Shown: positions 1 to 17,980 of the stretch, one piece after another | Layout of the letters: every line of letters starts with the position of its first letter | Position numbering within the stretch: the first letter of the stretch is position 1 | Assembly (NCBI GenBank): GCA_944322575.1 | Contig: CALUPK010000079.1 | Location: 1-33,937 of the forward strand | Reading direction: 5' to 3' | From: an uncultured Bacteroidales bacterium | GTDB taxonomy: Bacteria > Bacteroidota > Bacteroidia > Bacteroidales > UBA932 | Length of the DNA: 33,937 nt | The notes under the pieces: model-generated | The model's input: the letters and a program-made list of their open reading frames with translations, nothing else | Database searches by the model: none | Told to the model about the DNA's origin: nothing | Translations under genes and position numbers: made by a program

Positions 1-429
1 CCCCTACCTGTGTACGGCAAGGGCGAGAACGTGCGCGACTGGCTGTATGTGGAGGACCACGCGAGGGCCATCGACCTTATCTTCCACGAGGGCAAGGTAG
101 CGGAGACCTACAACATCGGTGGCTTCAACGAGTGGAAGAACATCGACCTGATAAAGGTTATCATTAAGACCGTAGACCGTATCTTAGGCAATCCCGAGGG
201 CTATTCTGACAGCCTTATCACCTACGTTACTGACCGTGCGGGCCACGACCTGCGCTATGCGATCGACGCGACGAAGCTGCACCGTGAGTTAGGCTGGAGC
301 CCGAGCCTGCAGTTCGAGGAGGGCATCGACAGGACAGTGCGCTGGTACCTGGACAACCAGGCGTGGATGGACAACATCACCTCCGGGGAGTACGAGAGGT
401 ACTACGAGGATATGTACGGCAATAGATAG
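1..429 (+). CDS. rfbB: dTDP-glucose 4,6-dehydratase, C-terminal part (partial at left edge)
   Basis: The reading frame is open from base 1 to the TAG at 427-429 and encodes about 142 residues, roughly the last 40% of the family's usual length of about 350. The family hallmark GENVRDWLYVEDHARAI is at the start of the visible part, followed by a typical C-terminal substrate domain containing YNIGG and DRAGHDLRYAID. RmlB/RfbB is an NAD-dependent SDR enzyme that turns dTDP-glucose into dTDP-4-keto-6-deoxyglucose, the precursor of rhamnose, 6-deoxytalose and 4-amino-4,6-dideoxy sugars. The flippase gene begins two bases after its stop, so it is part of the polysaccharide operon. The catalytic N-terminal half lies outside the window. 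The family assignment is firm. Confidence 0.93.
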   Translation, partial: PLPVYGKGENVRDWLYVEDHARAIDLIFHEGKVAETYNIGGFNEWKNIDLIKVIIKTVDRILGNPEGYSDSLITYVTDRAGHDLRYAIDATKLHRELGWSPSLQFEEGIDRTVRWYLDNQAWMDNITSGEYERYYEDMYGNR

Positions 430-431
430 AA

Positions 432-1886
432 GTGTCAGAATCCCTAAAGAAGAAGACAGTACGCGGCACTTTTTGGAGTGCCGTTGACAGCATAGCAAGT
501 CAAGGTGTTTCTTTTCTGGTAGGCCTTGTGCTGGCGCGTCTGCTGACTCCGCATGAGTACGGCCTGATAGGCTATATCATGATATTGGTTTCGGTGTTCA
601 ACAGTATCGTGGACAGCGGGTTCTCGAGTGCATTGATTCGGAAGAAGGATGCCGCTGCGATAGATTACAGCACATCGTTTATATTCAACATAGCGGTCAG
701 TATCGTCTTGGTCGTGGCGATGTTCTTTCTTGCGGTACCGTTCAGCAGGTTCTTCAATGAGCCGCAGTTAGTACCGCTTGTGAGGGTGATGTCAATAATA
801 GTCCTCATCAATGCCCTGGCGCTTATACAGAGGACGAACCTGACTAAGAACGTAGATTTCAAGACCCAGACAAAGGCCTCGCTGATATCGTCGGTCTCAA
901 GCGGTGCGGTAGGCCTGGCAATGGCATTCGGGGGACTCGGAGTGTGGAGTCTGGTCGGTCAGCAGCTGAGCCGTCAGTTGGTGAATACGGTATGTCTGTG
1001 GATTTTCAACAGATGGAAGCCGACGTGGCAGTTCTCATGGACCTCTTTCCGCGAGCTTTTCGGTTTCGGATGGAAACTGCTGGTGTCCGGGCTTATCGAT
1101 ACTGTATGGAAAGAAATCAGTCAGTTGGTGATAGGCAAATGCTACTCGACAGCCACACTCGGACAGTACACCCGCGGCAAGCAGTTCTCGGATATTTTCT
1201 CGACCAACATGACATCCGTAGTACAGAGGGTCAGTTTCCCTGTTCTCAGTTCCATTCAGGACGAGAGGGAAAGAATGAAGGAAGGATACCGGAAGATAAT
1301 CAGGACTACGATGCTTGCGTCATTCGTACTCCTTTTCGGTCTGGCAGCGGTTGCAGAGTCCTTGGTCGTGGTACTTATAGGCCCGCAATGGGAAGAGGCT
1401 GCACATTATCTTCAGATATTGTGTTTTTCGGCCTGTCTTTATCCCTTGCATGCGATTAATCTCAATATGCTGCAGGTGCAGGGACGCTCTGACCTGTTAC
1501 TTAAATTAGAGATAGTGAAAAAAATAATAGGTCTGGCCCCGTTAGCCGCCGGAATATTCATCGATATAGACTGGATGCTGTGGGGCTGGGTGATAACTGG
1601 GGGGGTAGCGTACTGGCTGAATTCACGTTATTCAGGCAGGCTTATAGGCTACTCGATATGGATGCAGGTCCGGGATATCCTGCCGTCCTTCGGTATAGCG
1701 ACGGTAATGGCTGTATGTGTGTTTGCCCTGACTTTATTGAAAATGTCTCCTATATGGATGCTGCTGGTTCAGTTGTCCGTCGGAGCAGTAATCGTGATAA
1801 TTCTTTCCGAGGCTGTACGGTTGCCTGAATACATAGAGATAAGAAACACAGTTCTGAATTTTTTCAGACGTACAAATCAGCAATAA
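432..1886 (+). CDS. Wzx-type polysaccharide flippase (MOP superfamily)
   Basis: This 484-residue integral membrane protein has about 12-14 hydrophobic segments. It starts with the charged stretch SESLKKKTVRGTFWSAVD and contains LARLLTPHEYGLIGY, a pattern typical of the WzxC/oligosaccharide-flippase family of the MOP superfamily. Such proteins move lipid-linked glycan repeat units across the inner membrane. The start is a GTG at 432, two bases after rfbB; no in-frame ATG occurs before the first membrane segments, so GTG is the only sensible start. Base composition is GC-rich and resembles rfbB and the following aminotransferase. The next gene starts one base after its stop. Substrate specificity cannot be read from sequence. 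Confidence 0.9.
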   Translation: MSESLKKKTVRGTFWSAVDSIASQGVSFLVGLVLARLLTPHEYGLIGYIMILVSVFNSIVDSGFSSALIRKKDAAAIDYSTSFIFNIAVSIVLVVAMFFLAVPFSRFFNEPQLVPLVRVMSIIVLINALALIQRTNLTKNVDFKTQTKASLISSVSSGAVGLAMAFGGLGVWSLVGQQLSRQLVNTVCLWIFNRWKPTWQFSWTSFRELFGFGWKLLVSGLIDTVWKEISQLVIGKCYSTATLGQYTRGKQFSDIFSTNMTSVVQRVSFPVLSSIQDERERMKEGYRKIIRTTMLASFVLLFGLAAVAESLVVVLIGPQWEEAAHYLQILCFSACLYPLHAINLNMLQVQGRSDLLLKLEIVKKIIGLAPLAAGIFIDIDWMLWGWVITGGVAYWLNSRYSGRLIGYSIWMQVRDILPSFGIATVMAVCVFALTLLKMSPIWMLLVQLSVGAVIVIILSEAVRLPEYIEIRNTVLNFFRRTNQQ

Positions 1887-1887
1887 A

Positions 1888-3000
1888 ATGGACAATCAGC
1901 AGATAACAGTTACGTCTCCGCTCCTCCCGGGCTTAGACGAACTGAATGAGTATCTACGCGACATCTGGTCCCGTAAGTGGATAACCAACAACGGACATTG
2001 GCATCAGGAACTTGAGAAGGAGCTATGCGGGTATCTGAAAGTTCCATATCTGAGCCTATTTACAAACGGTACATTGCCGCTTATCACGGCTCTGCAGGCC
2101 CTCCGCATAACAGGAGAGGTGATAACAACTCCTTTCAGTTTTGTAGCCACTACACACTCCCTTTGGTGGAACGGCATCAAGCCGGTATTCGTGGACATCG
2201 ATCCGTCCAACTGCGGTATAAATCCGGACTGTATCGAGGCGGCCATAACTCCGCGTACCACTGCGATCATGCCTGTGCACTGCTACGGCAAGCCTTGCGA
2301 CACGAAGCGGATACAGGACATAGCAGACAAGTACGGCCTCAAGGTCATCTACGATGCGGCCCATGCCTTTGGAGTGGAGGTGGACGGCGAGGGCATCCTG
2401 AATGCGGGTGATATGTCGACACTCAGCTTCCACGCGACCAAGGTATACAACACGATAGAGGGCGGCGCACTGATAGTACACGACGCTAAGACCAAGCAGC
2501 GGATAGATTACCTCAAGAACTTCGGCTTTGCCGGCGAAACGACGGTCGTAGCCCCCGGCATCAACGGCAAGATGGACGAGGTGCGCTCCGCAGTGGGCCT
2601 CATCAACCTGAAGCATGTGGACGAGGCCATCGAGGCAAGACATAAGGTAGCCGTCGCTTATCGCGAGGGCCTGAAGGATATCCACGGCATCTCGTACTTC
2701 GAGGACATGTCGGGCGTGCGACACAACTACTCGTACTTCCCGATCTTCGTGGACGCGGAACAGTACGGCATGACCAGGGATGAGTTGTACGACAAACTGA
2801 AATCAAGGAACATCTACGGCAGAAGGTATTTCTATCCGCTCATAAGTGAGTTCTCCACATACAGGGGCTTAGAGTCAGCGACGAAGGAGAATCTTCCGGT
2901 TGCCCACCGTATAGCAGAACAGGTAATCTGCCTGCCTATGCACCATCAGCTCAGTGAGGAGGATGTAAATAGAATCTTGGAGACTATAGTGGAAAAGTAA
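1888..3000 (+). CDS. VioA-like PLP-dependent sugar aminotransferase (DegT/DnrJ/EryC1/StrS family)
   Basis: This 370-residue protein is full length for the DegT/DnrJ/EryC1 fold. The PLP-binding lysine is K185 in SFHATKVYNTIEGG, and the cofactor-stacking motif YDAAHAFG (D156, H159) is intact. The N-terminus (TSPLLPGLDELNEYL, then WITNNG) resembles VioA-type enzymes, which transaminate dTDP-4-keto-6-deoxyglucose to dTDP-4-amino-4,6-dideoxy-D-glucose (viosamine, Qui4N). An rfbB gene two genes upstream would supply exactly that substrate. It starts one base after the flippase stop and its own stop abuts the next ATG. The family is certain; the VioA-type substrate is inferred from N-terminal resemblance and context. 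A WecE- or PseC-like role is the alternative. Confidence 0.85.
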   Translation: MDNQQITVTSPLLPGLDELNEYLRDIWSRKWITNNGHWHQELEKELCGYLKVPYLSLFTNGTLPLITALQALRITGEVITTPFSFVATTHSLWWNGIKPVFVDIDPSNCGINPDCIEAAITPRTTAIMPVHCYGKPCDTKRIQDIADKYGLKVIYDAAHAFGVEVDGEGILNAGDMSTLSFHATKVYNTIEGGALIVHDAKTKQRIDYLKNFGFAGETTVVAPGINGKMDEVRSAVGLINLKHVDEAIEARHKVAVAYREGLKDIHGISYFEDMSGVRHNYSYFPIFVDAEQYGMTRDELYDKLKSRNIYGRRYFYPLISEFSTYRGLESATKENLPVAHRIAEQVICLPMHHQLSEEDVNRILETIVEK

Positions 3001-4143
3001 ATGGCAGAATCAGTATCCATAACGCAGAAGACTCCTCGTGAGAGCGGCCTCGAGCTGTACCGTATCATAGCGATGCTGCTTATCGTGGCGCATCACTATG
3101 TTGTCAACTCAGGTCTTCTGGATGTGATGTATGAGAGTCCGCTGGAGGGTAAGGCTGTGTTCATGTTCCTATTTGGAATGTGGGGCAAGACAGGCATAAA
3201 CTGCTTCGTCTTGATAACAGGATATTTCATGTGTACATCAAGGATAACCATTAGGAAATTCCTCAAGCTGCTGCTTGTGGTGTACTTTTACAGGATAGTG
3301 ATATATGTCGCGCTTTCCATGGCTGGATATAACGATGTAAGTCTTAGCGGTATAGTAAAACTGTTACTGCCCGTAACTTCTGTAAAGCAGAATTTTACTT
3401 CGTGTTATCTACTGTTTTACCTGACGATACCTTTCCTTAATATACTAGTATCTCACATGACCAAAAAACAGCATCTGCTGGCTGCAGGACTAGGGCTGAT
3501 GATATATACTCTTCTTGGTAGTATCCCGAAAATATATATTGACATGAACTATGTGTCATGGTTCATCGTGTTGTTCCTTATCGGCTCCTATCTAAGGTTG
3601 TATCCTGAGAGATGGTTTGCTAGTAGAAAGTTATGGATTTATGCTACAGCTGTTTCAGTATTTCTAGCTATGACTAGCGTCATAGCTTTACTTGTTTTTG
3701 GAGATTGGATAAATGCCAATTACGGGCAGAAATTGAGACTGGCGTATTTCTTTGTAGCCGATTCTTACAAGATTTTGGCAGTTGCAGTAGCTATAAGTTC
3801 TTTCATGCTGTTCAAAAATATTGGAATTCAATATAGTAAATTTATAAATACCGTGGCGGCAGCTACCTTTGGGGTCTTTTTGATACATACTAACAGTGAT
3901 GCCATGAGACAATGGCTGTGGCAAGATATGCTAGATAATGTAGGTTGGTATGTGGGGTCGATAGGAAGTGGCTCATTATGGAGTATTGTTTTGCATTCTG
4001 TAATTGGTGTTATCGTGGTGTATACGATATGTACATTAATAGAATGTTTAAGAATTCACTTTACTGAGAGAAAAATGTTGGACATAGTAGAAAGTGCAGT
4101 TTGTGTGGTGTGGAAGAAAATGAGGCTGGTTTCAAAGAAGTAA
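3001..4143 (+). CDS. Membrane acyltransferase, acyltransferase-3 family
   Basis: This 380-residue protein has about ten membrane segments. The N-terminus reads ELYRIIAMLLIVAHHYV, with the family's conserved Arg (R21) and His (H31/H32) in the first helix, as in OafA/WecH-type acyltransferases that transfer acetyl or other acyl groups to surface glycans. The ATG follows the aminotransferase stop with no gap, so it is translationally coupled to the GC-rich part of the operon. The first 100 codons use GC-rich codons and the last 150 are clearly AT-rich, so the gene straddles a composition break; it may be a recombinant or the edge of an imported block. No frameshift is visible. The acyl donor and acceptor are unknown. 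Confidence 0.85.
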   Translation: MAESVSITQKTPRESGLELYRIIAMLLIVAHHYVVNSGLLDVMYESPLEGKAVFMFLFGMWGKTGINCFVLITGYFMCTSRITIRKFLKLLLVVYFYRIVIYVALSMAGYNDVSLSGIVKLLLPVTSVKQNFTSCYLLFYLTIPFLNILVSHMTKKQHLLAAGLGLMIYTLLGSIPKIYIDMNYVSWFIVLFLIGSYLRLYPERWFASRKLWIYATAVSVFLAMTSVIALLVFGDWINANYGQKLRLAYFFVADSYKILAVAVAISSFMLFKNIGIQYSKFINTVAAATFGVFLIHTNSDAMRQWLWQDMLDNVGWYVGSIGSGSLWSIVLHSVIGVIVVYTICTLIECLRIHFTERKMLDIVESAVCVVWKKMRLVSKK

Positions 4144-4496
4144 TGTGGATTGCAATTCTATATATGAGAAAGTCTGTTGACATTATGGAACAAAAAAATG
4201 GAAAGTTATAGAATATAAAATATTTTCTGATAGTTTGTAATAGTGCAAGACTGAATACGGAGTATTTACGTTTATATGCTTAAGTCATAATGTATCTAAG
4301 CAGTCTTCAAATTAAGTAGTGTCAAAATAATATTTGCAGTAGAATTGTATAAGTATTACGCACTATAAGTACAAGAAAAAGAGTTAAGATATAATATTTA
4401 TAGATTTTTAAAGCTGATACTTTTGCTGAAAGTACAATTTAAATCAAATGTGAATGAAAGCTTTCAATTACTTCTATTTATAAATTTTTGATTTTT
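4144..4496. other. AT-rich intergenic gap inside the polysaccharide locus
   Basis: About 350 bases without a credible gene separate the acyltransferase from the ATP-grasp gene, although flanking genes on both sides are packed with zero or negative spacing. The stretch is strongly AT-rich with stops in all frames. The only structure I can support is a promoter-like box at 4418-4425, listed separately. No repeat, IS end or RNA gene was recognised. Confidence 0.6.
4418..4425 (+). promoter_or_regulatory. Putative Bacteroidota -7 box for the ATP-grasp cassette
   Basis: TACTTTTG matches TAnnTTTG. A TTTA at 4397-4400, 17 bases upstream, could be a weak -33 box. It lies about 70 bases before the ATG at 4497, in the only long gap upstream of the cassette. 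In AT-rich DNA such matches are common, so confidence is low. Confidence 0.35.
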
Positions 4497-5720
4497 ATGA
4501 AAAGTGTACTAGTATTAGGCGGAGGTTTTGACCAGATAGCTCTTATTAATGAGTTGAAAACAAGAGGATATAGAACAATTCTTGCAGATTACCTCTCTAA
4601 TCCTCCAGCAAAACAATGTGCAGATTATCATTATCAGATAAGTACTTTAGATGTACAATCTATAAAAATTATTGCTGAAAAAGAAAGGGTATGTTTTGTT
4701 TGTACAGCCTGTACCGATCAGGCATTATTAACTGTTGCAAAAGTGTCAGAGGATTTAAAATTGCCAACATATATATCATATAAGACAGCTCTTGATGTGA
4801 CAAATAAATGTTATATGAAAGCGCAATTGACAAAATATAATGTGTTGACATCAAAATATATGTCAAAAAATAATGAAAATATAGACAATTTAGGGGAATT
4901 GCAATTTCCGTTAGTTGTAAAACCTGCTGATTGTAATTCATCAAAAGGTGTCAAAAAAGTATATGACAAAGATCAGTTGCGGTTGTGTCTTAAGGAGGCA
5001 CTATCCATGAGTCGATCGAAAACAGCTATCGTTGAGGAATTTGTAAGAGGAAAGGAAATTTCAGCAGATTTCTACGTAGAAGAAGATAAAGTGGTGTTTT
5101 TAAGTGCGACGTCATCTGTAAAAATAAATAATGATAAGATATTTACGATAGTGCAAAGTTTCTATCCTGCAGTCTCATCTTCACAAGAAATAGAAATAAC
5201 AAACATCGCTAAATCTATATGTAAAGCTTTTAATTTAAAAAATACGCCATTACTAATTCAATTCTTGGAGCAGGAGGGTAAATTTTATGTAATAGAATTT
5301 AGTGCACGTATGGGAGGAGGAACAAAGTATAAGTTGATTCAGACGTTGACAGATGTAAATATAATGTCCAAATATGTTGATCTTATTCTTGGAGATAAAC
5401 CAAAAATAGAGAGTATAGCTCGGAATGTCAAATACGCATCGCTTACTTATATCTATTGTTCTCCAGGTAGAATACGTAATTATATAGGTTTTACAGATTT
5501 GATGGCAGAGTCTGTGATATCAGACTATTTTTTTTACAAAACACCAGGAATGGAGATAACAAAAGTAGAAACAAGTAGTGATAGAGCAGCAGGGTATCTT
5601 ATAACCGCTGAAACACTTACTGATTTGTATAATAAAGAAAAAAAGGCGGACTCGAAGCTGGCAATTATAAATGAATGTGGAGAAGATATGATGCTTCATA
5701 ATGTATTAAATTATGAATAG
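4497..5720 (+). CDS. ATP-grasp carboxylate-amine ligase-like protein
   Basis: This is a 407-residue protein from the ATG at 4497; a TTG three codons earlier is less likely. It has a pre-ATP-grasp Rossmann-like N-terminus (KSVLVLGGG), an ATP-binding lysine in PLVVKPAD (K142) with the flexible SSKG loop at about 148-151, an EEFVRGKEISADF segment, and the metal-binding EFSARMGGGTKY near E267-R271. ATP-grasp enzymes of this type activate a carboxylate as an acyl-phosphate and join it to an amine or thiol. The gene overlaps the opine dehydrogenase by 8 bases and heads a four-gene coupled cassette. The likely role, by inference, is to couple an amino acid made by the neighbours to an amine, perhaps an amino sugar. 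The exact substrate is not recognisable. Confidence 0.85.
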   Translation: MKSVLVLGGGFDQIALINELKTRGYRTILADYLSNPPAKQCADYHYQISTLDVQSIKIIAEKERVCFVCTACTDQALLTVAKVSEDLKLPTYISYKTALDVTNKCYMKAQLTKYNVLTSKYMSKNNENIDNLGELQFPLVVKPADCNSSKGVKKVYDKDQLRLCLKEALSMSRSKTAIVEEFVRGKEISADFYVEEDKVVFLSATSSVKINNDKIFTIVQSFYPAVSSSQEIEITNIAKSICKAFNLKNTPLLIQFLEQEGKFYVIEFSARMGGGTKYKLIQTLTDVNIMSKYVDLILGDKPKIESIARNVKYASLTYIYCSPGRIRNYIGFTDLMAESVISDYFFYKTPGMEITKVETSSDRAAGYLITAETLTDLYNKEKKADSKLAIINECGEDMMLHNVLNYE

Positions 5721-6780
5721 TAAAATAACTGTAATCGGGGCTGGTAATGGAGGTCAGGCAATATCGGCATATTGTGCCTCTATGGGTTTGTCTGTATGTC
5801 TATATAATAGAAATCTCAGACGATTTTCATATAAGAATCGTCAATTAACTGTAGAACTTAGAGGGGCTATCAAAACTACTGCTACTATATCGTTATTGAC
5901 GGATGATATACAAGAGGCCGTAAAGTTTGGAGATATCATTATGGTAGTAACTACAGCAACGGCTCACAGGAATATAGCAGAACAGATTTCCCCTTATCTT
6001 AAAGATGGTCAAATCATAATATTAAATCCAGGACGAACTTGTGGAGTTTTGGAATTTAATGCAGTGCTATCTATGAGTGATAAAAGGGTGTATTTAGCTG
6101 AAGCCCAAACACTAGTTTATGCTTGTAGAGAACTTTCTCCAGGAGTAGTTAATGTAATTGGAGTAAAAGATAAAGTATTATTGTCAGGTAGAACAAAGCA
6201 GGAAACTGACTATGTTCTAAGTGTAATACAATCGGTATTTCCATGTTTTATTCCTGCTACAAATTTATTGGAGACAGGATTAGAAAATATAGGAGCAATT
6301 TTTCATCCTCCAATAGTCATTTTTAATGCAGCTTCTATTGAGCGGAATAATGAGTTTTATTTCTATCGGGACATGACTCCTGAAATATCTGATTTTATTA
6401 TTGAACTAGATAAAGAAAGACTTCGAACAGGAGCTGCGTATAATATAAGTCTTATGCCAGTGTTTGAATGGATAAAGTATGCATATCCAAGTACATATGG
6501 AAATACCTTGTGCGAAAGAATGAAAAATAATCCAGCATACTATGATATAAAAGGGCCAGGCTCATTATTTACGAGGCAATTGACAGAAGATATTCCAACG
6601 GGTTTAATTCCAATAAGTGAGTTGGCAGCAAAAGCAAAGGTTGAGACTCCGTTAATGAATGCGATAATTACAATCTCTTCATCACTTTTGGGTGTAGATT
6701 TTAGAAAAATTGGAAGAACATTGGAAAATATGGGGTTGCAGAATTTAAATAAAGAAGACATTATTAATGCGATATCATGA
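5713..6780 (+). CDS. Opine dehydrogenase family protein (octopine/nopaline dehydrogenase-like)
   Basis: The protein has 355 residues, the usual family length. It has an N-terminal NAD(P) Rossmann motif, ITVIGAGNGGQAISAY. The C-terminal helical octopine/nopaline dehydrogenase domain begins near NIGAIFHPP, where H198 sits at the position of the family's conserved catalytic His, and continues through TEDIPTGLIP, VETPL and IGRTLENMGL. Enzymes of this family reductively condense the amino group of an amino acid with a 2-oxo acid, giving a secondary amine dicarboxylate (an opine). It overlaps the ATP-grasp gene by 8 bases and the B12 protein by 4. Opine-type residues such as N-epsilon-(1-carboxyethyl)lysine are known in some enterobacterial O-antigens, so a glycan role is plausible; the substrates are inferred, not seen. 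Confidence 0.88.
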   Translation: MNSKITVIGAGNGGQAISAYCASMGLSVCLYNRNLRRFSYKNRQLTVELRGAIKTTATISLLTDDIQEAVKFGDIIMVVTTATAHRNIAEQISPYLKDGQIIILNPGRTCGVLEFNAVLSMSDKRVYLAEAQTLVYACRELSPGVVNVIGVKDKVLLSGRTKQETDYVLSVIQSVFPCFIPATNLLETGLENIGAIFHPPIVIFNAASIERNNEFYFYRDMTPEISDFIIELDKERLRTGAAYNISLMPVFEWIKYAYPSTYGNTLCERMKNNPAYYDIKGPGSLFTRQLTEDIPTGLIPISELAAKAKVETPLMNAIITISSSLLGVDFRKIGRTLENMGLQNLNKEDIINAIS

Positions 6781-8630
6781 TTCACACTTTGTTAAAAAAT
6801 GAAATCTTCGGGTTCGTCAAAACTGAAGTCGATGTGCATACTTTAGGTGTGACAACAATAGCAAATTTGCTAAAAGATTGTGGATATAAATCTTTTATAT
6901 CTCCGGAAGACGTATCTGTAGCGGTAGAGGATATTAAAAAAGTGAATAATTACTCATGCCTTAAGCGATGGATCTTGGGGAATGGAATATCAAGGCTTGG
7001 TTTTAGTTATAGATTAGATCCGAGGGAGGCGAAAGATTATTTTTGTCGCTTATTTGAAATATTAAAATCTGACAACATGCTGGTCGATAATGGTGGTCCA
7101 TTGAGGGATATCTTTTTTGCAGGATTGCCAGATGCATGTGTTATGGTGCAGAGAGAACTGGGTAAAGGTATTACTGTGTTTCCAGGAGATGAGACGCCAT
7201 CTCAATCATTGAGGATGTTGGGTGTTCCAGAGTGTGATTTACCAAAAGATATAAAAGAAAGTTCAGAATATGACAGGATGCGTTATGATTTTGCAAAATC
7301 TCTAATTGAAAGAGAAGAATATAGATGTCAAATATCAAATGATCATTTAGGATACGAAGAGGCGGGAACGCAGAAAGATTTATTTGTAAAACGATTACAA
7401 TATTGTAGGTCCAAAGGAACTCTTCCTTTAATTAGAGCACACGTTGGCCCATATAATCCAGACCGTGTTCAAGCTGTAAAGGAATTTCTTTCTTGGGAAA
7501 AAGAATTGGCATCAACACATTTATTAGATATTTTGTCAATAGGAACATCTCAGTTGACGCAATCTATGTTTGGAGAATCTTGGGATGGATTTCCAAATGG
7601 AGGAGGTGTCCCTGTAAATTCAGAAATAGAATATCGTATGATTCACGATGCGGCGAGTCCTATGTTGGTAAGGACCTATGCTGGAACGAAAAATATATTG
7701 GATATGGCTAAAATGCATGAAAGAGCATTAAATATTGCATGGCATGCTTTATCATTTTGGTGGTTTTGTGAAATAGATGGTAGGGGTAAGAATACGGTTC
7801 TTGATAATCTTAAAGAGCATATAGATGCTATAAGGTACATTGCATCTACGCATAAACCGTTCGAGCCGAATGTCCCGCATCATTTTGCCTTCAGAGGTGC
7901 TGATGATATTACCTACATAATATCAGCATATTTAGCTTCAAAGATGGCTAAAATGTTGGGAATAAAAGATCTAATTTTGCAAAATATGCTTAATACTCCC
8001 AAATATACATCTGGAATTCAAGATTTGGCTAAAAGTAGGGCTATGCTAAGATTAGTTAAGGAATTGGAAGACTCAAACTTCAAGGTTCATCTCCAAACAA
8101 GGACTGGGCTCGATTATTTTTCTCCTGATTTGTCTAAAGCAAAAATACAGTTAGCATCTGCAACTGCAATGATGGATGATATAGATCCAAATAATGTATA
8201 TAGCCCTGAAATTATTCATGTGGTAAGTTATAGTGAAGCTGTGAGGTTGGCAACTCCTCCAATAATAATAGACAGTATAAAAATAACACTTAATGCGATA
8301 AAAGAATATAGAAAATATCGGAATTTAGGTAAAGTTGAAAATATGGCATATAGTCGTGAAGTTAGTGATAGGGCAGAAAGCATGTATACTGAGGCAAAAG
8401 CGGCTATTAGTATTTTGGAAAAAGGGATTGATAAATTATATTCTCCTGAAGGTCTTTATATGGTTTTCAAAGAAGGTTTTTTCCCTGTACCATATTTGTT
8501 GGATCCGGAAAAGAAGTTTACTAAAGCTACAAACTGGAATACTGCTATTAGAAATGGAGGGATAAAAGTTGTTGATGAAAAAGGGAAAGTCATAGATACG
8601 TGTGACCGTTATAAAATGATATTGTCATGA
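6777..8630 (+). CDS. Cobalamin-binding protein with glutamate-mutase (GlmE)-like barrel
   Basis: This is a 617-residue protein. Residues 1 to about 160 read as a B12-binding Rossmann domain. They contain the cobalt-ligating DxHxxG motif as DVHTLG (D19, H21, G24), followed by alternating strands and helices (GISRLGFSYRL, RDIFFAGLPDAC, ITVFPGDETP). The rest resembles a TIM barrel of the glutamate mutase epsilon type: a glycine-rich GFPNGGGVPVNSEIEY near 270-285, and a late strand-helix IIHVVSYSEAV...ATPP near 479-495 that lines up with the barrel end of GlmE. In ordinary glutamate mutase the B12 domain is a separate small subunit; here it is fused at the N-terminus. An adenosylcobalamin-dependent carbon-skeleton mutase acting on an amino acid is the best guess. 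A lysine/ornithine aminomutase-like role is the alternative. It overlaps both neighbours by 4 bases (ATGA). Confidence 0.65.
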   Translation: MIHTLLKNEIFGFVKTEVDVHTLGVTTIANLLKDCGYKSFISPEDVSVAVEDIKKVNNYSCLKRWILGNGISRLGFSYRLDPREAKDYFCRLFEILKSDNMLVDNGGPLRDIFFAGLPDACVMVQRELGKGITVFPGDETPSQSLRMLGVPECDLPKDIKESSEYDRMRYDFAKSLIEREEYRCQISNDHLGYEEAGTQKDLFVKRLQYCRSKGTLPLIRAHVGPYNPDRVQAVKEFLSWEKELASTHLLDILSIGTSQLTQSMFGESWDGFPNGGGVPVNSEIEYRMIHDAASPMLVRTYAGTKNILDMAKMHERALNIAWHALSFWWFCEIDGRGKNTVLDNLKEHIDAIRYIASTHKPFEPNVPHHFAFRGADDITYIISAYLASKMAKMLGIKDLILQNMLNTPKYTSGIQDLAKSRAMLRLVKELEDSNFKVHLQTRTGLDYFSPDLSKAKIQLASATAMMDDIDPNNVYSPEIIHVVSYSEAVRLATPPIIIDSIKITLNAIKEYRKYRNLGKVENMAYSREVSDRAESMYTEAKAAISILEKGIDKLYSPEGLYMVFKEGFFPVPYLLDPEKKFTKATNWNTAIRNGGIKVVDEKGKVIDTCDRYKMILS

Positions 8631-9706
8631 ATGAGATATCATTCGCATTGCAAGAAAGATTTTTACTTCAAAAGGAATTTCTCGGAGATAATAAACCGAT
8701 TAATAGAGTTAAACCAATAGTCTCAGTATTGGTTTCAACTTATAAACATTCCAAATATATCTCAGAGTGTCTTGATGGAATATTAATGCAGCAGACATCA
8801 TTCCAGTTTGAAATAATAATAGGAGAGGATGGTTCAACAGATGGTACAAAGGAAATTTGTGAAAAGTATGCAGTTTTGCATCAGGATAAGATTAGGTTAT
8901 TTAATCGAGATAGGAAGTTGTCACAATTCGTAGACAAATATGGAAGAGTTACAAGATTTAATGGCATATGGAATAGAATGTCTGCAAGAGGGACATATAT
9001 TGCTTTATGTGAAGGGGATGATTATTGGACGGATTCCTTTAAGTTGCAAAAGCAGTATGAATTTTTAGAAAGTAATGCAGATTACAATCTCGTGTTTAGT
9101 CCGGTAAAGTATTATTCGCAATCAAAGGGTAAATTCTTATGTGTAGCCGGGGGAAAAGCGGATTCTTTTGAAGATTTATTGAAAAGAAATACAATACCAA
9201 CCTTAACAACCTTTTTTCGAAAAGAAATTCAAACTCAGTATTATGAAGAGATCCACCCTGAGTCAAAAAATTGGCTAATGGGGGATTATCCAATGTGGTT
9301 GTATTTTGCAACTAAAGGGAAAATCGGATTCATATCAGAGCCAATGGGTGTTTATAGGGTTTTGGAATCATCTTTATCTCATTCAAAGTCTCCGTATAAA
9401 CGATTAGAGTTTGATATTAATAGGTTAGAGATAGCTGACTTTTTTTCAAAATATTTTCAAGTTCCTTCAGTGTATATAAACTCCCAAAAGATATTTTTAC
9501 AGTGGGAGTATAGTTGCAGAATGAATGATAAAAACGCTGTTAGGGATAAGATTCAGGAATTAAAGAAATATGCAGGCAGGAATCGCTTAAGATACATATT
9601 GATAAAGTATTCGTATATGTGTCCTCGTTATTTTATCGTATTATTAGATGGATTTAGGAAAGTAAAGGGTATGTTAGACGCCATTAAAAACAAAGAAATC
9701 TGTTAG
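8627..9706 (+). CDS. Glycosyltransferase family 2
   Basis: This is a 359-residue GT-A fold enzyme. The nucleotide-sugar binding start is VSVLVSTYKHSKYI, followed by GEDGSTDGT and the metal-binding region CEGDDYWTD, which is a common variant of the DxD site in Bacteroidota family 2 enzymes. No membrane segments are evident, so it is probably a cytoplasmic, membrane-associated transferase acting on the lipid-linked repeat unit. The ATG overlaps the stop of the B12 protein as ATGA, so it is the fourth member of the coupled cassette and probably adds the sugar that the cassette modifies (inference). Donor and linkage are unknown. Confidence 0.9.
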   Translation: MNEISFALQERFLLQKEFLGDNKPINRVKPIVSVLVSTYKHSKYISECLDGILMQQTSFQFEIIIGEDGSTDGTKEICEKYAVLHQDKIRLFNRDRKLSQFVDKYGRVTRFNGIWNRMSARGTYIALCEGDDYWTDSFKLQKQYEFLESNADYNLVFSPVKYYSQSKGKFLCVAGGKADSFEDLLKRNTIPTLTTFFRKEIQTQYYEEIHPESKNWLMGDYPMWLYFATKGKIGFISEPMGVYRVLESSLSHSKSPYKRLEFDINRLEIADFFSKYFQVPSVYINSQKIFLQWEYSCRMNDKNAVRDKIQELKKYAGRNRLRYILIKYSYMCPRYFIVLLDGFRKVKGMLDAIKNKEIC

Positions 9707-10161: not shown

Positions 10162-11532
10162 ATGATTAATTCTTGTAAAATAAAAATATCTAGGATTATA
10201 TTGTTTGTGCTGTTGATTGTCAGTTTATTGATGTATTTGTTATGTCCGAAACAAATGACGGTGTCTATGCCTTTGTTTTATGCGACTTTTGGACTTGCTG
10301 TAATATCTGTCGCAGTATTTATGATTAATAAGAAGAAGACAAGTTACATAGACTTTGATACGTTGTTCATATTCGTCCTTTTCTTAATAAGTTTTCTTTC
10401 GACGTTTTTTTATGGGAAATCATATTTTCGTGCTTTATTTTTAGGTTTTGAATTTAATACAGATTATATAAATTCTGGATCTTTATTATCGTTAATAGGA
10501 ATACAGTCTTATTGTCTAGGCAGTACGAAAGTCCATCCGAGTAGATATAGGCAAGAATCAAAAGTTCAGTCAATAACTCACAAAGTGATTGGCACGAACG
10601 GTTTGTTTTTTTGCGTTTTGATAGGAATGGTTTTGTTTTTTCTAACTGGCGGTTGGGCATATTATCAGTCGATTTATAAAAATGGAGCAGGAGGCGATTC
10701 TTTATGTGTTTATATTTTGTTGATAACAATTGTTTTTGCAATAGTATTAGTTGCAACTGAATTTTATAATTCTGAGATTGATCATAGATATCATATCTCA
10801 AAATATTCGGTAGCAGTTGTGTGCTTATTCTGTTTTGTATTGTTGTACTTAGGAAATCGAACAGCTGCATCTAATATTTTACTGCCAGCAATTGGTTTAT
10901 ATGCTTTGTTTAAAAAGCGAGTGAGCATTAAAATATTTATTGTTTTTATGCTGATTGCAATATTTTCTATGTGGATTTTTCAGAATGTACGGTCAAATGT
11001 GGAAGTCGAGTCAGAAAAATTAAGTCCTATTATGATATTTACAGACTTAACAATTCCGTCTAGGACTATTTATGAAGCAATGGGTTATGTTGATGATTAT
11101 GGTTTTACATATGGTAGAACTATGGCAATTGGCGTGGTTGGAGTTGTTCCCAAATTGGCCTCAATTTTAAATATGGGTGAGTCGGGTTCTGCAGAAGTTC
11201 TGACAAATGAAACATATGACAAGCTGCACTATCGTGGTTCAAGGACAGGACTGGGAACAACCGTAATATCAGATATTTATTTGTCCTTTGGTTTAGTTGG
11301 AGTAGTAATATTAATGTATCTTTTAGGTTTGTTTGTGAGTCGTAGTCAAAAGAAAGCTCTTCAGTTAAATTATTATGGAATAATAATTTATTCGGCATTA
11401 CTTTCAAATAGCGTTTTTTTAGCAAGGGCCTCATTTACTCATCCGGTGAGAAATATTGTATGGGGTCTTATAGTTGCAATGTTGGTCGTAACTTTAACAA
11501 ATTATAATGCAAAAAGTAGGAGAAAGTCGTAG
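10162..11532 (+). CDS. Wzy-like O-antigen/oligosaccharide repeat-unit polymerase
   Basis: This is a 456-residue, very hydrophobic protein with about 11-12 predicted membrane segments and a large loop around residues 285-370 (EKLSPIMIFTDLTIPSRTIYEAMGY and beyond). It lies in a locus that already has a flippase and glycosyltransferases. That topology and position are those of Wzy polymerases, which join undecaprenyl-linked repeat units on the periplasmic face. Wzy proteins share little sequence, so the assignment rests on topology, composition and context. An O-antigen ligase is the alternative. The start at 10162 places a short basic stretch (MINSCKIKISRI) before the first helix. Its last 26 bases overlap the next gene. 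Confidence 0.75.
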   Translation: MINSCKIKISRIILFVLLIVSLLMYLLCPKQMTVSMPLFYATFGLAVISVAVFMINKKKTSYIDFDTLFIFVLFLISFLSTFFYGKSYFRALFLGFEFNTDYINSGSLLSLIGIQSYCLGSTKVHPSRYRQESKVQSITHKVIGTNGLFFCVLIGMVLFFLTGGWAYYQSIYKNGAGGDSLCVYILLITIVFAIVLVATEFYNSEIDHRYHISKYSVAVVCLFCFVLLYLGNRTAASNILLPAIGLYALFKKRVSIKIFIVFMLIAIFSMWIFQNVRSNVEVESEKLSPIMIFTDLTIPSRTIYEAMGYVDDYGFTYGRTMAIGVVGVVPKLASILNMGESGSAEVLTNETYDKLHYRGSRTGLGTTVISDIYLSFGLVGVVILMYLLGLFVSRSQKKALQLNYYGIIIYSALLSNSVFLARASFTHPVRNIVWGLIVAMLVVTLTNYNAKSRRKS

Positions 11533-12574
11533 AATAGTAGTATTTACTCCATCATTAGATATAGGAGGCATTGAAAAGGTGTTATTGACTTATGCCGATA
11601 TCTTGTCTACCAGAAAATATGACGTAGTTTATTTGGTATGCCATGAAAACGGTATGCTGTTTAGTGAAGTTCCGCATGGGATAAAGTTGCATAATTTACG
11701 AACTAATGATCTGAAAAAATCATTGTTTAAAATAGTCTCCTTCTTTAATCAATATAGGCCAGACTCTGTTATATGTGCAAATAAAGCGACAATAGTGATT
11801 TTACTATCCAGATTGTTATGCCGGAGCAAATTTAAAATTATAACCTCACATCATAATTATTTAAACTCTGATAATTTATCAATCATAGATAAGAAGTTGA
11901 TATGGTATGTATATAATTTGTGCGATTCTGTAATTGCTGTTTCTTCCGGAATTTATAAACTATTGGTTAATCATCATGTTAAAAGGCGAAAGATCCATTT
12001 GATATATAATCCTGTAAACTACGAATACATACAAAGAAAATCCAAGGAGCCTATCGACAATATAAAATTTAAAGATTATGTAGTATTTGTGGGAAGACTT
12101 ACAATGGTAAAGAATATTCCATTTTTATTTAAAGCTTTTGAAATCTGCTTAAATTCAAGACCAAACATAGGATTATTGATAGTTGGAGATGGACCAGAAA
12201 AGCATAATTTATTGTCATTGTCAGAGTGTATAAAGGATAACATACTTTTTTTAGGAGCACAAGAGAATCCGTATCCATACTTAAAATCTGCAAAAGTTGT
12301 TGCGTTGCCGTCATTATCAGAAGCATTTCCTACAATATTATTGGAAGCATTAGCTTTAGGTAAGACTATTGTGTCAACCCCAACTGCAGGAGCTGTTGAG
12401 ATTTTACGGCATGGTGATTTAGGCTATATTACTCAAAGTTTTACAGATATACAGCAGTTCGCTGAATTGACTTTGCGTGCATTTGATAACCCACTGGACA
12501 GCGCTATCTTGAGAAATGCTGTAGGGCAATATAGCTTCCAGGAAACATTTAGGCGTTTAAAAAATTTATTATAG
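11507..12574 (+). CDS. Glycosyltransferase family 4 (GT-B fold)
   Basis: This is a 355-residue two-domain GT-B enzyme. The N-terminal acceptor domain begins VVFTPSLDIGGIEKVL, the GG loop typical of family 4. The C-terminal donor domain contains VVFVGRLTMVKN, LLIVGDGPEK and the E-x7-E signature in SLSEAFPTILLEALALG, which contacts the nucleotide sugar. It is a cytoplasmic or membrane-peripheral retaining transferase that would add one sugar to the repeat unit. The ATG at 11507 lies 26 bases inside the polymerase gene in another frame, so the two are translationally coupled. The next gene follows after 18 bases. Confidence 0.9.
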   Translation: MQKVGESRRIVVFTPSLDIGGIEKVLLTYADILSTRKYDVVYLVCHENGMLFSEVPHGIKLHNLRTNDLKKSLFKIVSFFNQYRPDSVICANKATIVILLSRLLCRSKFKIITSHHNYLNSDNLSIIDKKLIWYVYNLCDSVIAVSSGIYKLLVNHHVKRRKIHLIYNPVNYEYIQRKSKEPIDNIKFKDYVVFVGRLTMVKNIPFLFKAFEICLNSRPNIGLLIVGDGPEKHNLLSLSECIKDNILFLGAQENPYPYLKSAKVVALPSLSEAFPTILLEALALGKTIVSTPTAGAVEILRHGDLGYITQSFTDIQQFAELTLRAFDNPLDSAILRNAVGQYSFQETFRRLKNLL

Positions 12575-12592
12575 AGAAATAGTTGGCAAGGT

Positions 12593-13591
12593 ATGGAGGA
12601 CGAAAAAGTAAGTGTAATAATCCCATTGTATAATGTTGGGCTATATATTCAACCGTGTATTCAGTCTGTATTATCGCAAACGTATAAAAACCTTCAGATT
12701 ATATTAGTGAATGATGGGTCAACGGATAATACAGAGGAAGTTATCTCAAAATATAAATCAGATAATCGTTTTGTCATTATCAATAAGCCAAATGGAGGTG
12801 CGAGTTCGGCAAGAAATGCAGGACTGGAAGTAGCTGAGGGGGAATATATCTATTTTATTGATTCTGATGACTCCATAATGCCACATACAGTGGGTGTATT
12901 GGTGAATAATATAAAAGAGTTCCAATCAGATTTTTGTTGCTATAGGTATTGTTTTAAAAATAATACTAAAATAACAAAAACTTGTCCCAATTATGGTATT
13001 GAATGTTATCGAACAAAAGACGAGATAATAAAAGATGCTTTTTTAGGAATAAATATAAAGACCGTTATCTGGGCAAAATTTTTTCGCAGAGACTTCTTAA
13101 AAAAGAACAAAATAGGGTTCCTTGAAGGTACAATTAATGAAGACTATTTGTTTACAATGCAATGTGCAATATGTTCAAGTAGAGTATCTTTTTGCAATGA
13201 TCTTTTATATTGTGCTAATGAGCGTCAGGGCAGTGTGTCGAGAAACATTAAGGCGGAAACAATAAGTAGTCTGGCTACAATATATAATGGGGTGGAGTCA
13301 ATGTTGAAAAAATATGGTATATACCATCAATATAAAGTATTTTTATATGGAGGTTATACTAAATTAACATTATTCTCGTTATTTCAAGTTGCATATCGAT
13401 TGAGCAGTTTGAAAAAGTTTATACGGTTTTATAAAATGCTGGCAGATAAGCCGTATATGAAATATTTTGTTGGGAAGGAAGTTAGATTGGCAGGACCTCA
13501 ATTTTATTTGTTTTATTTAATCAGTTTAAGGCCAGTTCTGTTTTATTCTGTAGTGCGAATTCTAAAATATACAGGGTATCATATTTATTAA
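12593..13591 (+). CDS. Glycosyltransferase family 2
   Basis: This is a 332-residue GT-A enzyme. It has the canonical family 2 start VSVIIPLYNVGLYI, then LVNDGSTDNTEEV, NGGASSARNAG and the metal-binding YFIDSDDSI. The C-terminal third is more basic and partly hydrophobic, suggesting membrane association. It would transfer a sugar from a nucleotide donor to the growing lipid-linked oligosaccharide. Spacing is 18 bases from the family 4 gene and 4 bases to the acetyltransferase, so it belongs to the same transcription unit. Composition is AT-rich like the rest of the imported part. The sugar specificity is not readable. Confidence 0.92.
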   Translation: MEDEKVSVIIPLYNVGLYIQPCIQSVLSQTYKNLQIILVNDGSTDNTEEVISKYKSDNRFVIINKPNGGASSARNAGLEVAEGEYIYFIDSDDSIMPHTVGVLVNNIKEFQSDFCCYRYCFKNNTKITKTCPNYGIECYRTKDEIIKDAFLGINIKTVIWAKFFRRDFLKKNKIGFLEGTINEDYLFTMQCAICSSRVSFCNDLLYCANERQGSVSRNIKAETISSLATIYNGVESMLKKYGIYHQYKVFLYGGYTKLTLFSLFQVAYRLSSLKKFIRFYKMLADKPYMKYFVGKEVRLAGPQFYLFYLISLRPVLFYSVVRILKYTGYHIY

Positions 13592-13595
13592 TAGA

Positions 13596-14198
13596 ATGAG
13601 AAACTCGTATTCAATCAGTCAAAAAATAACTTTGGCTGTGTCCTTAGTACGCTCAAAATTAATCTGTAGAAGCGTTCGTTTATTTCGCTTTCCGATTGAT
13701 TTACGTGGAAGAAAAATGATAGATTTTGGGAAAAATCTTACAACTGGAAGATTCTGTCGGATAGAAGCAATCAGAATTAATAATGAGAAAGAAAAGAAAA
13801 TCATATTTGGGACCAATGTTCAAATAAATGATTCTGTCCATATCTGTGCGTTGAAAAAGGTAGAAATAGGAAACGATGTCCTAATAGCGGGACATGTCTA
13901 TATCTCTGATAACAGTCATGGGATGTATAAAGGTGACGAAAATGATTCAAGTCCATTTATATCTCCTATGAAAAGGAACTATTTTATTTCACCAGTTTGT
14001 ATAGGAGATAATACATGGATAGGAGAAGGGGTTATTATTATGCCTGGAGTTAAAGTTGGGAGAGGATGCATTGTCGGCGCTCATTCTATAGTAAATCACG
14101 ATATTCCTGATAATTGTATGGTTGTAGGAAGTCCTGCCAGAATTATAAAAAGATATTCAATTGAGAAAAAAAGGTGGGAAAAGACCTCTGATGAATGA
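13596..14198 (+). CDS. Left-handed beta-helix (hexapeptide) acyltransferase
   Basis: This is a 200-residue protein. Its C-terminal half is made of hexapeptide repeats (VCIGDNTWIGEGVIIMPGVKVG, continuing to GAHSIV), and it ends with IPDNCMVVGSPARIIK, the standard close of the maltose/galactoside acetyltransferase-like LbH family. The catalytic His is most likely the one in DNSHGMY. Such enzymes acetylate a sugar hydroxyl or amine with acetyl-CoA. In this locus it could O-acetylate the repeat unit or N-acetylate the 4-amino sugar made by the VioA-like enzyme; it is not a clear VioB. The basic N-terminus of about 45 residues is unusual in composition. Its stop overlaps the next gene's probable ATG by 8 bases. 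Confidence 0.88.
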   Translation: MRNSYSISQKITLAVSLVRSKLICRSVRLFRFPIDLRGRKMIDFGKNLTTGRFCRIEAIRINNEKEKKIIFGTNVQINDSVHICALKKVEIGNDVLIAGHVYISDNSHGMYKGDENDSSPFISPMKRNYFISPVCIGDNTWIGEGVIIMPGVKVGRGCIVGAHSIVNHDIPDNCMVVGSPARIIKRYSIEKKRWEKTSDE

Positions 14199-15369
14199 AA
14201 ATAATAAACAGGCAAATATTAATTGTAATATGAAGAAGGTACTCATTACTGGCGGAGCAGGTTTTATAGGCTCACATGTCGCACTTAAACTTATTGAAAA
14301 AGGCTATATCATTACAGTTTTGGATAATCTTTCTCCTCAAATTCATGGAGATAATCCAGAAAAAACATCTCCTCTATATTGTTCAATAAAAGACAAAGTT
14401 ACTTTTATTAAAGGTGATGTCTCAAATTATGTAGATTGGGAACGAGCAATTGAAGGCCAGGACGCCATCATACATTTAGCTGCAGAGACTGGTACGGGAC
14501 AGTCGATGTATAAAGTCTATCAATATGTTAATACAAATATCGGCGGAACAGCGGTAATGCTCGATATTTTGGCGAATAAAAAACATAATGTTGGGAAAGT
14601 AGTAGTAGCGGAGTCCCGTGCAATATACGGAGAAGGAAGGTATTGGAGTGACGATCTTGACTCATTTGTGTATCCTGATGGGCGTTCAGACGAGGCAATG
14701 AGTGTGGGTGATTTTAATGTAAAATACCCTGGTTGTAAACAAAAGCTTAAATTAGTGTCGACTACAGAGGATTCCAAGATTCATCCTGATTCAGTGTATG
14801 GTGTTACAAAGCAGGTTCAGGGACAGTTGGTTCATATGGTCTGCAAAAATATAGGTATAGAGTCAGTATCATTCAGATATCAAAATGTGTATGGCCCAGG
14901 TCAGTCATTAAGCAATCCTTATACAGGCATCTTATCTATTTTCTCTACGAGAATAAAGAACGGTAATGAGATAAATATTTTCGAAGATGGATTTGAAAGC
15001 CGTGATTTTGTGTATATAGATGATGTTGTTGATGCAACCATTCTAGGTCTTGAAACTCAGGGAGTAAGCGGATTGGCGTTTAATGTCGGAACTGGTGTGC
15101 CGACAACGGTGTTGACTGTAGCAAATACACTTGCAAAGAACTATGGTGTATCGGTTCCGATAAAGGTGTCTGGCAATTATCGTTTGGGAGATATACGACA
15201 TAACTATGCGGACATAACATTGGCGAAGGAGAAGTTGGGATTCTCACCAAAATGGACATTTGAACGCGGTATTGAAAAGTTTGTACAATGGGTAAATGAG
15301 CAGGACGTTCAAGAGGACAGATATGAACAATCTATTCGTGAAATGCAAGAACGAGGTTTATACAAATGA
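14191..15369 (+). CDS. NAD-dependent nucleotide-sugar epimerase, dTDP-L-rhamnose 4-epimerase-like
   Basis: This is a 392-residue extended SDR protein from the ATG at 14191. The in-frame TTG at 14161 lies far inside the previous gene, and a second ATG at 14230 is possible. The glycine motif TGGAGFIGSH (G21-G27) binds NAD and the catalytic YGVTK gives Y203 and K207. A long insertion between the serine-bearing SRAIYGEG and the YxxxK, with SDEAMSVGDF and KYPGCKQ, resembles enzymes annotated as dTDP-L-rhamnose 4-epimerase, which make dTDP-6-deoxy-L-talose. If that holds, RmlC/RmlD must be encoded outside the window next to the partial rfbB. UDP-glucose 4-epimerase-like activity is the alternative. 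The stop overlaps the next ATG by 4 bases. Confidence 0.8.
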   Translation: MNENNKQANINCNMKKVLITGGAGFIGSHVALKLIEKGYIITVLDNLSPQIHGDNPEKTSPLYCSIKDKVTFIKGDVSNYVDWERAIEGQDAIIHLAAETGTGQSMYKVYQYVNTNIGGTAVMLDILANKKHNVGKVVVAESRAIYGEGRYWSDDLDSFVYPDGRSDEAMSVGDFNVKYPGCKQKLKLVSTTEDSKIHPDSVYGVTKQVQGQLVHMVCKNIGIESVSFRYQNVYGPGQSLSNPYTGILSIFSTRIKNGNEINIFEDGFESRDFVYIDDVVDATILGLETQGVSGLAFNVGTGVPTTVLTVANTLAKNYGVSVPIKVSGNYRLGDIRHNYADITLAKEKLGFSPKWTFERGIEKFVQWVNEQDVQEDRYEQSIREMQERGLYK

Positions 15370-16370
15370 ATTATAAGGGTAAATCTATATTATTTATCTC
15401 CCCAGTTTTTTTTGGGTATGAGAAATCTATTAAGAAGTATCTGACAGATTCAGGAGCAAAAGTTTATTTTTTTGATGATAGACCTTCAAATTCATTTTTA
15501 ATTAAAGGCTTGATCAGACTTTGTAAAGGAAGTGTATCACACTTTGTCAACAAGTATTATAATGCAATTTATTCTGAAATAAAAAGCCATAAATTTGATT
15601 ATTTTTTTGTATTGAATCCAGAGGCATTACCTCTTTGGTTTGTAGAAAAACTTCGATATGAAAAATCATCTACAAAGTTTATTTTGTATATGTGGGATTC
15701 AATGCGGAATAAGGAAAATGCAAAAAAATATTTGAATTATTTTGATGCTGTATATTCATTTGATAGAACGGATAGTGAAGAAATTCCCAGATTGACGTTT
15801 CTTCCATTGTTTTATTTAGAAGAATATTCAGCTTTGTCCAGTATGAAGCAATTTAAATATGATTGTTGTTTTATTGGGACTGCTCATAGTGATAGATACG
15901 CATTGATTAAAAGGATTCAGAATCAACTTAATTTGAAAGGTGTTTCGTGTTATTGGTATCTTTATCTTCAAAGCAAAAAAATGTTTATATGGCAGAAATT
16001 AACTAACAGATATTTTAAGTCTGCCAGAATCTCTGACTTCCATTACAAGCCGTTATCAAAAGACGATGTGATTAAAAAAATATCAGAATCAAGAATAATT
16101 ATTGATATACAGCATCCGGAACAAACAGGCCTTACGATGCGTACAATAGAAGCATTGGGTGCATGTAGAAAATTGGTGACAACAAATCCAGACATAATAA
16201 AATACGATTTTTACAAGCGGGAAAATATCTGGGTGTTAGATCGGCAGAGTCCCAATTTTGATGAATCTTTTTTTAAAGAAGAATATAGTCCTATTGAAAA
16301 AGAAATATACGAAAAGTATTCTTTGCCATATTGGATAGATACTTTATTTTTAAACGAGAGCTCGAAGTAA
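15366..16370 (+). CDS. Putative GT-B-like glycosyltransferase of a polysaccharide locus (CgeB-like)
   Basis: This 334-residue soluble protein has no membrane segments. It begins with a strand and loop, KSILFISPVFFGYEKSI, and has a mid-chain ILYMWDSM followed by YDCCFIGTAHSDRY. A late segment, IDIQHPEQTGLTMRTIEALGACRKLVTTN, resembles the donor-binding helix region of GT-B transferases, with an E before ALG. It resembles the CgeB/Eps11J-type proteins found in capsule loci, for which function is inferred rather than shown. The ATG overlaps the epimerase stop by 4 bases. It is the last gene of the polysaccharide operon and is followed by a terminator-like hairpin. No exact family assignment is possible by eye. 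Confidence 0.6.
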   Translation: MNYKGKSILFISPVFFGYEKSIKKYLTDSGAKVYFFDDRPSNSFLIKGLIRLCKGSVSHFVNKYYNAIYSEIKSHKFDYFFVLNPEALPLWFVEKLRYEKSSTKFILYMWDSMRNKENAKKYLNYFDAVYSFDRTDSEEIPRLTFLPLFYLEEYSALSSMKQFKYDCCFIGTAHSDRYALIKRIQNQLNLKGVSCYWYLYLQSKKMFIWQKLTNRYFKSARISDFHYKPLSKDDVIKKISESRIIIDIQHPEQTGLTMRTIEALGACRKLVTTNPDIIKYDFYKRENIWVLDRQSPNFDESFFKEEYSPIEKEIYEKYSLPYWIDTLFLNESSK

Positions 16371-17871: not shown

Positions 17872-17892
17872 AAATTAAAGTATTTACTCTTA

Positions 17893-17900
17893 CAAAGATA
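17893..17900 (-). promoter_or_regulatory. -7 promoter box of the DUF4143 ATPase gene
   Basis: On the minus strand this reads TATCTTTG, a match to TAnnTTTG, 21 bases before the ATG. A clear TTTG -33 box is not visible; the repeat units at 17916 onwards occupy that position. Confidence 0.6.
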
Positions 17901-17915
17901 ATCAAAAAAAATATG

Positions 17916-17969
17916 TTCGGTAATTTGGAGTAGTATTTTTCGGTAATATGGCTTAAAATTATTCGGTAC
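17916..17969. repeat. Three direct repeats TTCGGTA(A/C) at 23-bp spacing
   Basis: TTCGGTAA at 17916-17923, TTCGGTAA at 17939-17946 and TTCGGTAC at 17962-17969 start exactly 23 bases apart. The first two extend to TTCGGTAATnTGG. They lie directly upstream of the DUF4143 gene's -7 box, where an iterated operator would sit. Seen in sequence; the function is inferred. Confidence 0.65.
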
Positions 17970-17980
17970 AGGCTTAAAAG

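Follow-up and report, generated by a model that had tools for sequence, protein, structure and literature searches.

A polysaccharide-bound variant of a predicted opine dehydrogenase-B12 mutase pair in a Bacteroidales genome

Gene content of the locus

The window analysed here is the whole stretch of 33,937 nucleotides (bases 1-33937 of contig C79) and comes from a 2.3 Mb Bacteroidales genome (G000) that is 92% complete. It carries a cassette of three genes encoding an ATP-grasp ligase, an opine dehydrogenase (ODH) and a predicted B12-dependent mutase. The latter two enzymes form a predicted pair, of which the cassette is a polysaccharide-bound variant. The ATP-grasp and ODH genes overlap by 8 bases, the ODH and mutase genes by 4 bases, and the mutase gene overlaps a family 2 glycosyltransferase (GT2) gene by another 4 bases. 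These reading frames and overlaps agree with an earlier account made from the letters of the DNA (hereafter the sequence-only reading). The cassette comprises:

4497..5720, + strand: ATP-grasp ligase, the proposed amide-bond former (PF13535, E 2.3e-15, above cut-off)
5713..6780, + strand: opine (octopine/nopaline-type) dehydrogenase (PF02317, E 6.9e-40; 1bg6, E 1.1e-68)
6777..7262, + strand: predicted mutase, N-terminal B12-binding domain (residues ~1-160)
7263..8630, + strand: predicted mutase, glutamate-mutase-like triosephosphate isomerase (TIM) barrel and C-terminal part

According to Pfam and NCBIfam matches, bases 432-16370 form a Wzx/Wzy polysaccharide locus around the cassette. Flippase, polymerase and glycosyltransferases, the set by which such a locus is recognised, occur together in the window, with the Wzx-like protein scoring below its NCBIfam cut-off. 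Other loci and genomes are cited by L and G numbers. The remaining genes of the locus, together with the ORF just before it, are:

10..429, + strand: nucleoside diphosphate-sugar 4,6-dehydratase/epimerase, C-terminal part (PF16363, E 1e-20, profile positions 214-331 of 332)
432..1886, + strand: Wzx-type flippase (best NCBIfam model O-glycosylation flippase, E 2.2e-90, under the model cut-off)
1888..3000, + strand: DegT/DnrJ sugar aminotransferase, DegT below (PF01041, E 5.1e-98)
3001..4143, + strand: membrane acyltransferase between DegT and the trio (PF01757, E 7.5e-19; copy in L007 37% identical)
8627..9706, + strand: family 2 glycosyltransferase (PF00535, E 2.4e-17)
10162..11532, + strand: Wzy O-antigen polymerase (PF14296, E 4.9e-19)
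11507..16370, + strand: family 4 and family 2 glycosyltransferases, WbbJ-like acetyltransferase, epimerase/dehydratase and WaaS/CpsH glycosyltransferase, the remainder of the glycan locus

The dehydratase/epimerase gene is probably cut, because the window begins at base 1 of the contig. The flank at 16588-32824 encodes an AAA/DUF4143 protein, an AAA_21 ATPase, a Mur-ligase domain fused to alanine racemase, a phosphomethylpyrimidine-type kinase, a haloacid dehalogenase-type (HAD) hydrolase, a BlaR1/TonB-like protein, an RlmN-like radical S-adenosylmethionine protein, a patatin-Omp85 protein and a major facilitator superfamily transporter. At E 1e-6, nothing matches the open reading frame (ORF) at 24264-25637, across which a second frame is open.

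Enzyme classes of the three proteins

The ODH contains the motifs GAGNGGQA and HPP, and both its N-terminal NAD(P) fold (NAD_Gly3P_dh_N) and PF02317 score above cut-off. Its closest solved structure is N-(1-D-carboxylethyl)-L-norvaline dehydrogenase (1bg6). Residues H198, R288 and D293 align with 3c7a and are invariant in 13 of 13 aligned rows; we take their counterparts H212, R324 and D329 to be the catalytic His, Arg and Asp of octopine dehydrogenase. A single ODH copy was found in the window genome. The ATP-grasp protein is matched above cut-offs by PF13535, PF07478, PF01071, PF02655 and PF02786, and from its gene context we propose that it forms an amide with an amino sugar. DegT, likewise from gene context, is the proposed source of this acceptor; its nearest NCBIfam model is DesI (E 3e-86), reached with 290 bits against a cut-off of 650.

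The third protein (6777-8630) carries D19, H21 and G24 of the motif DxHxxG. Searches of Pfam, NCBIfam and PDB sequences returned no significant match to it, and its N-terminal part, searched alone, reached the B12-binding family PF02310 with an E value of 0.091 only. Hence, the label "B12 mutase" is not provable by sequence search of the window protein. In a predicted structure (pLDDT, the predicted local distance difference test, 79.5), a fold search ranks glutamate mutase epsilon first, and the N-terminal domain, when folded by itself, most resembles the B12-binding domains of mutases. On this model, the third protein has a GlmE-type TIM barrel, together with a B12-binding domain with the cobalt-ligating His expected of a glutamate mutase. 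An hhalign comparison (E 8e-6, probability 84%) further links the mutase family to GlmE. While the window protein does not match the glutamate mutase models PF06368 and TIGR01503, some Bacillota relatives do, PF06368 lying just above cut-off on family members in G653, G692, G677, G606 and G713. Adenosyltransferases are present in the carrier genomes. The motifs and the three enzyme classes named in the sequence-only reading are thus supported, the mutase class by its predicted fold.

GlmE grips the glycyl part of glutamate via R66, R149 and E171 and the acrylate part via R100 and Y177 (PMC10947579, in part). In an L-INS-i alignment, R66, R100 and R149 of GlmE correspond to H222, Q262 and Y301 in the mutase, the E171 position is variable and Y177 is W329. 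The position of Y181, presumably a further glutamate-mutase site, is mostly G. Q262 is invariant in all 66 rows of the mutase-family alignment.

Distribution of the cassette and of the pair

The long form of the mutase, to which the window protein belongs, turned up in 3 of 199 genomes from the window's family and 2 of 395 from the phylum, own genome included in each case; the remaining three of the five phylum matches are short forms. A scan of genome contigs yielded 9 loci. Neighbours were counted in 10 long-form loci that include upstream sequence (L007-L012, L014, L020-L022); L013 and L015 lack it and do not enter the counts for ODH, ATP-grasp and DegT. In every one of the 10, the ODH gene lies upstream of the mutase gene, immediately so in 9. 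A 305-residue ORF, methyltransferase-like by eye, stands between the two genes in L009 (2852-3769). An ATP-grasp protein at 42-55% identity accompanies the pair in 8 of the 10 (downstream in L014) and DegT at no less than 38% identity in 7, including one incomplete copy at a contig edge. Moreover, the order DegT, ATP-grasp, ODH, mutase is kept in L009-L012, and a GT2 with a 36-54% match to that of the window directly follows the mutase in L011, L012, L013 and L015. The DegT copies are 70-76% identical in L007, L008, L010 and L011 (74-75% in L007 and L008). L014, from a Ruminococcus metagenome-assembled genome, has the whole set (ODH 29-30%, ATP-grasp 42%, DegT 44%, mutase 50%). Rare co-occurrence of the three homologues, which the sequence-only reading had named as a sign against itself, was thus not what we found.

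Two further Bacillota long forms (L058, L059) also have ODH beside the mutase; L059 is a glycan locus with a different ATP-grasp protein. Clear glycan genes are present in 9 of 12 long-form loci with upstream sequence, so the polysaccharide setting claimed for the trio holds in most of them. These are Wzx-like genes in L007, L008, L010, L012 and L014, an initiating transferase in L021 and L022, and glycosyltransferases in L011 and L059. The other three are L020, with a single weak glycosyltransferase match, L009, whose short length allows no verdict, and L058, in which no glycan genes were seen. In L007 (5427-8892) and L008 (3985-8857), two and three divergent ATP-grasp proteins, respectively, lie upstream of the ODH-mutase pair, as though several residues were attached. 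In a 69-row tree, for which long branches were warned of, the 12 long-form rows are separate with 100/100 support, and short forms and MutL fusions stand apart. L008 was left out of alignment A4 and the tree, and L059, whose mutase is in two pieces, out of the family alignment and the tree.

The pair is also found elsewhere. A mutase relative, mostly of ~550 residues, occurs in 87 of 398 sampled Bacillota genomes, and ODH is present in 86 of these 87 versus 38 of the 311 others. Fifty-six Bacillota loci were opened, mostly the better-scoring of the 87 mutase-bearing genomes, and 28 more genomes were judged from coordinates. G593 (L014, placed with the long forms), G764 (a weak match) and G918 were not counted, nor was L071, a second stretch of G748. 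In 53 of the 56 opened loci, ODH and the mutase share a strand and lie within 1.5 kilobases (kb) of each other, the exceptions being L062, L074 and L113; within the 53, ODH is downstream in L101 and 1.4 kb distant in L097. This argues that the arrangement is not due to chance. By coordinates alone and on either strand, ODH is also within 1.5 kb in 27 of the 28 further genomes, and it was found in none of 12 glutamate mutase loci, a small control of ~4.3 kb each. Among the neighbours inspected, no signs of a glycan locus were seen for most Bacillota copies of the pair. A non-glycan setting, which the sequence-only reading had counted against itself, is thus seen for the pair and not for the trio. 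Genes for AsnB-like proteins lie near 9 of the 56 opened loci; genes for Ddl-like proteins lie near 10, in 8 cases on the opposite strand. A full glutamate mutase is encoded alongside the mutase-family protein in five Bacillota genomes (G622, G666, G677, G678, G709).

Three other arrangements were observed. Compact trios of ODH, short-form mutase and AsnB-like protein occur in three distant Bacteroidota genomes (L023, 6042-10383; L024, 6607-10728; L025, 2051-6304), with no glycan genes seen among the neighbours scanned; of the glutaminase domain, only a small terminal portion is matched in L024 and L025. In L069 (6345-16622) and L070 (443-11969), a mutase fused to MutL stands beside a divergent ODH and oligopeptide-type ATP-binding cassette (ABC) importer genes, possibly an uptake-and-breakdown version of the pair. 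L113 (7420-10386) holds a 989-residue frame whose first ~440 residues have no Pfam match and are followed by B12 and mutase domains; the frame runs from stop to stop, and part of it may be untranslated.

Proposed function and known systems

We propose that an acyl group derived from an opine is synthesised by the cassette and linked to an amino sugar in the repeat unit; we regard the case for this function as evenly balanced. DegT would provide the amino sugar, perhaps a nucleotide-linked 4-amino-4,6-dideoxyhexose. The ODH would reductively couple an amino acid with a 2-oxo acid to an N-(1-carboxyalkyl) amino acid, and the mutase, if dependent on adenosylcobalamin (AdoCbl), would then isomerise this opine through radical chemistry. 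A branched N-(1-carboxyethyl) group might, for instance, become a linear N-(2-carboxyethyl) group, an isomerisation we infer by analogy with methylmalonyl-CoA and glutamate mutases. The ATP-grasp enzyme would activate a carboxylate to form an amide with the amino sugar, the neighbouring glycosyltransferase would add the sugar, and Wzx and Wzy would export and polymerise the product. What we observed is the gene order, the recurrent association, the enzyme families, the fold class and the adenosyltransferases of carrier genomes; the substrates, the use of B12, the sequence of the ODH and mutase steps and the acceptor sugar are inferred.

In our view the more likely substrate of the mutase is an opine, a secondary amine flanked by two carboxylates, because the glutamate-holding residues are not conserved in the one alignment that anchored, ODH is a near-constant partner and five genomes have a true glutamate mutase as well. 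Going one step further, we tentatively suggest an "opine mutase": within a new class of AdoCbl radical mutases, which would convert N-(1-carboxyalkyl) amino acids to linear or otherwise rearranged isomers, the long form would be the polysaccharide branch. It would have been recruited together with ODH, an amide ligase and a sugar aminotransferase, the four forming a portable unit for decorating surface polysaccharides.

Alternatively, the mutase might act first, as the sequence-only reading had it, and convert glutamate or another free amino acid (e.g., to 3-methylaspartate), to which the ODH would add a 2-oxo acid, with ligation of the product to the sugar by the ATP-grasp enzyme as the last step. 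The nearest fold, the hhalign link and the PF06368 matches agree with this order. However, in the one alignment the glutamate-contacting residues are not conserved at the aligned positions, the five genomes with both proteins already have a full glutamate mutase, and so constant an ODH partner exceeds the need of a mere amino-acid supplier. We consider the mutase-first order unproven and unlikely. The cassette could also make a free small molecule, an osmolyte or secondary metabolite unattached to glycan, as the short-form pair with AsnB- or Ddl-like ligases may do. The ligase genes near some Bacillota loci are in line with such a product, which is nevertheless improbable for the cassette given the clear glycan genes in most long-form loci.

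A degradative direction, in which the pair oxidises and thereby breaks down opines and the glycan genes are merely neighbours, seems quite improbable to us. It would suit L069 and L070, where ODH and the mutase-MutL fusion lie near importer genes and near a peptidase C26 gene (L069) or a GntR-type gene (L070), and it would suit L058, which is not in a glycan locus. Yet L069 and L070 fall on a separate branch, the window genes overlap one another and a glycosyltransferase, and L009-L012 repeat the order from DegT to mutase, followed by GT2 in L011 and L012.

Several points weigh against the proposal of an opine-derived glycan substituent, which is weak in its chemistry, its residue mapping and its acceptor sugar. 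The residue mapping comes from one alignment (L-INS-i); E-INS-i failed to anchor and the two disagree. Invariant R220 and R299 sit two residues upstream of the R66 and R149 positions, and thus a carboxylate grip of other geometry is possible. MutL (PF13941) was found in 1 of 10 carrier genomes and not in the window genome, at its 92% completeness. The ODH does not simply travel with the mutase, as the L014 copies show (29-30% versus 50%), and is only 35-36% identical in L058 and L059. The long-form pair of L058 lies among uvr-type genes, where no relative of the window ATP-grasp protein was found. In L007 and L008, the ATP-grasp proteins are only 22-25% identical, though among the closest relatives, and the DegT match is only 25-29% in L020-L022. 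DegT similarity was compared within cassette-bearing loci, and the NCBIfam match does not fix which amino sugar DegT may make. Finally, the Fisher test and the neighbour counts ignore the relatedness of the genomes.

If the mutase does act on opines, these would be a new substrate class for coenzyme-B12 radical enzymes and surface-glycan diversity in Bacteroidales would gain an extra biosynthetic unit. Were the opine-mutase reading true, we would know of no earlier case of coenzyme-B12 radical mutase chemistry in bacterial surface glycan synthesis. The polysaccharide version should hold its product in a purifiable polymer readable by nuclear magnetic resonance, and therefore the glycan could reveal what the pair makes.

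Among known systems, glutamate mutase (GlmS/GlmE with GlmL) shares the B12-binding domain and TIM barrel and is the nearest solved fold, and the two relatives fused to MutL recall its GlmL. Unlike glutamate mutase, the window protein is one chain with the B12 domain first, its glutamate-holding residues are not conserved in the one anchored alignment, and MutL was not found in the window genome. Lysine 5,6- and ornithine 4,5-aminomutases also require pyridoxal phosphate (PMC3958899, in part). The 1bg6 dehydrogenase is homologous to the ODH over nearly its whole length, whereas the window ODH is tied to a predicted B12 mutase.

The pair itself had been foreseen. A novel B12-dependent family was predicted, without an assigned function, from 11 bacteria, Clostridia included, in which it is always adjacent to a pfam02317 octopine/nopaline dehydrogenase; in several of them, genes for D-Ala-D-Ala ligase and asparagine synthase lie close by (Zhang et al., 2009; PMC2667541, in part). 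The shared combination of a B12-type domain next to a pfam02317 dehydrogenase leads us to judge, by gene context, that the mutase family is the one predicted in 2009; pairs fitting that description occur in about a fifth of the sampled Bacillota genomes. In section 8 of that paper a glycan locus is unmentioned, whereas the long form lies mostly in polysaccharide loci with ATP-grasp and DegT. The sequence-only reading had missed this prediction. We did not meet the polysaccharide form in the open-licence papers searched, where we also found no function for the pair.

Opines as such are established glycan substituents, listed in O-antigens on 4-amino-4,6-dideoxyglucose and on galacturonic acid (PMC10609480, in part). 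In the Providencia alcalifaciens O35 O-antigen, alanopine is carried on 4-amino-4,6-dideoxyglucose (PMC10609480, in part), which, like the product proposed here, is an opine amide-linked to an amino sugar. The O35 substituent is plain N-(1-carboxyethyl)alanine, for which a mutase is not needed, whereas the substituent proposed here would be rearranged by one.

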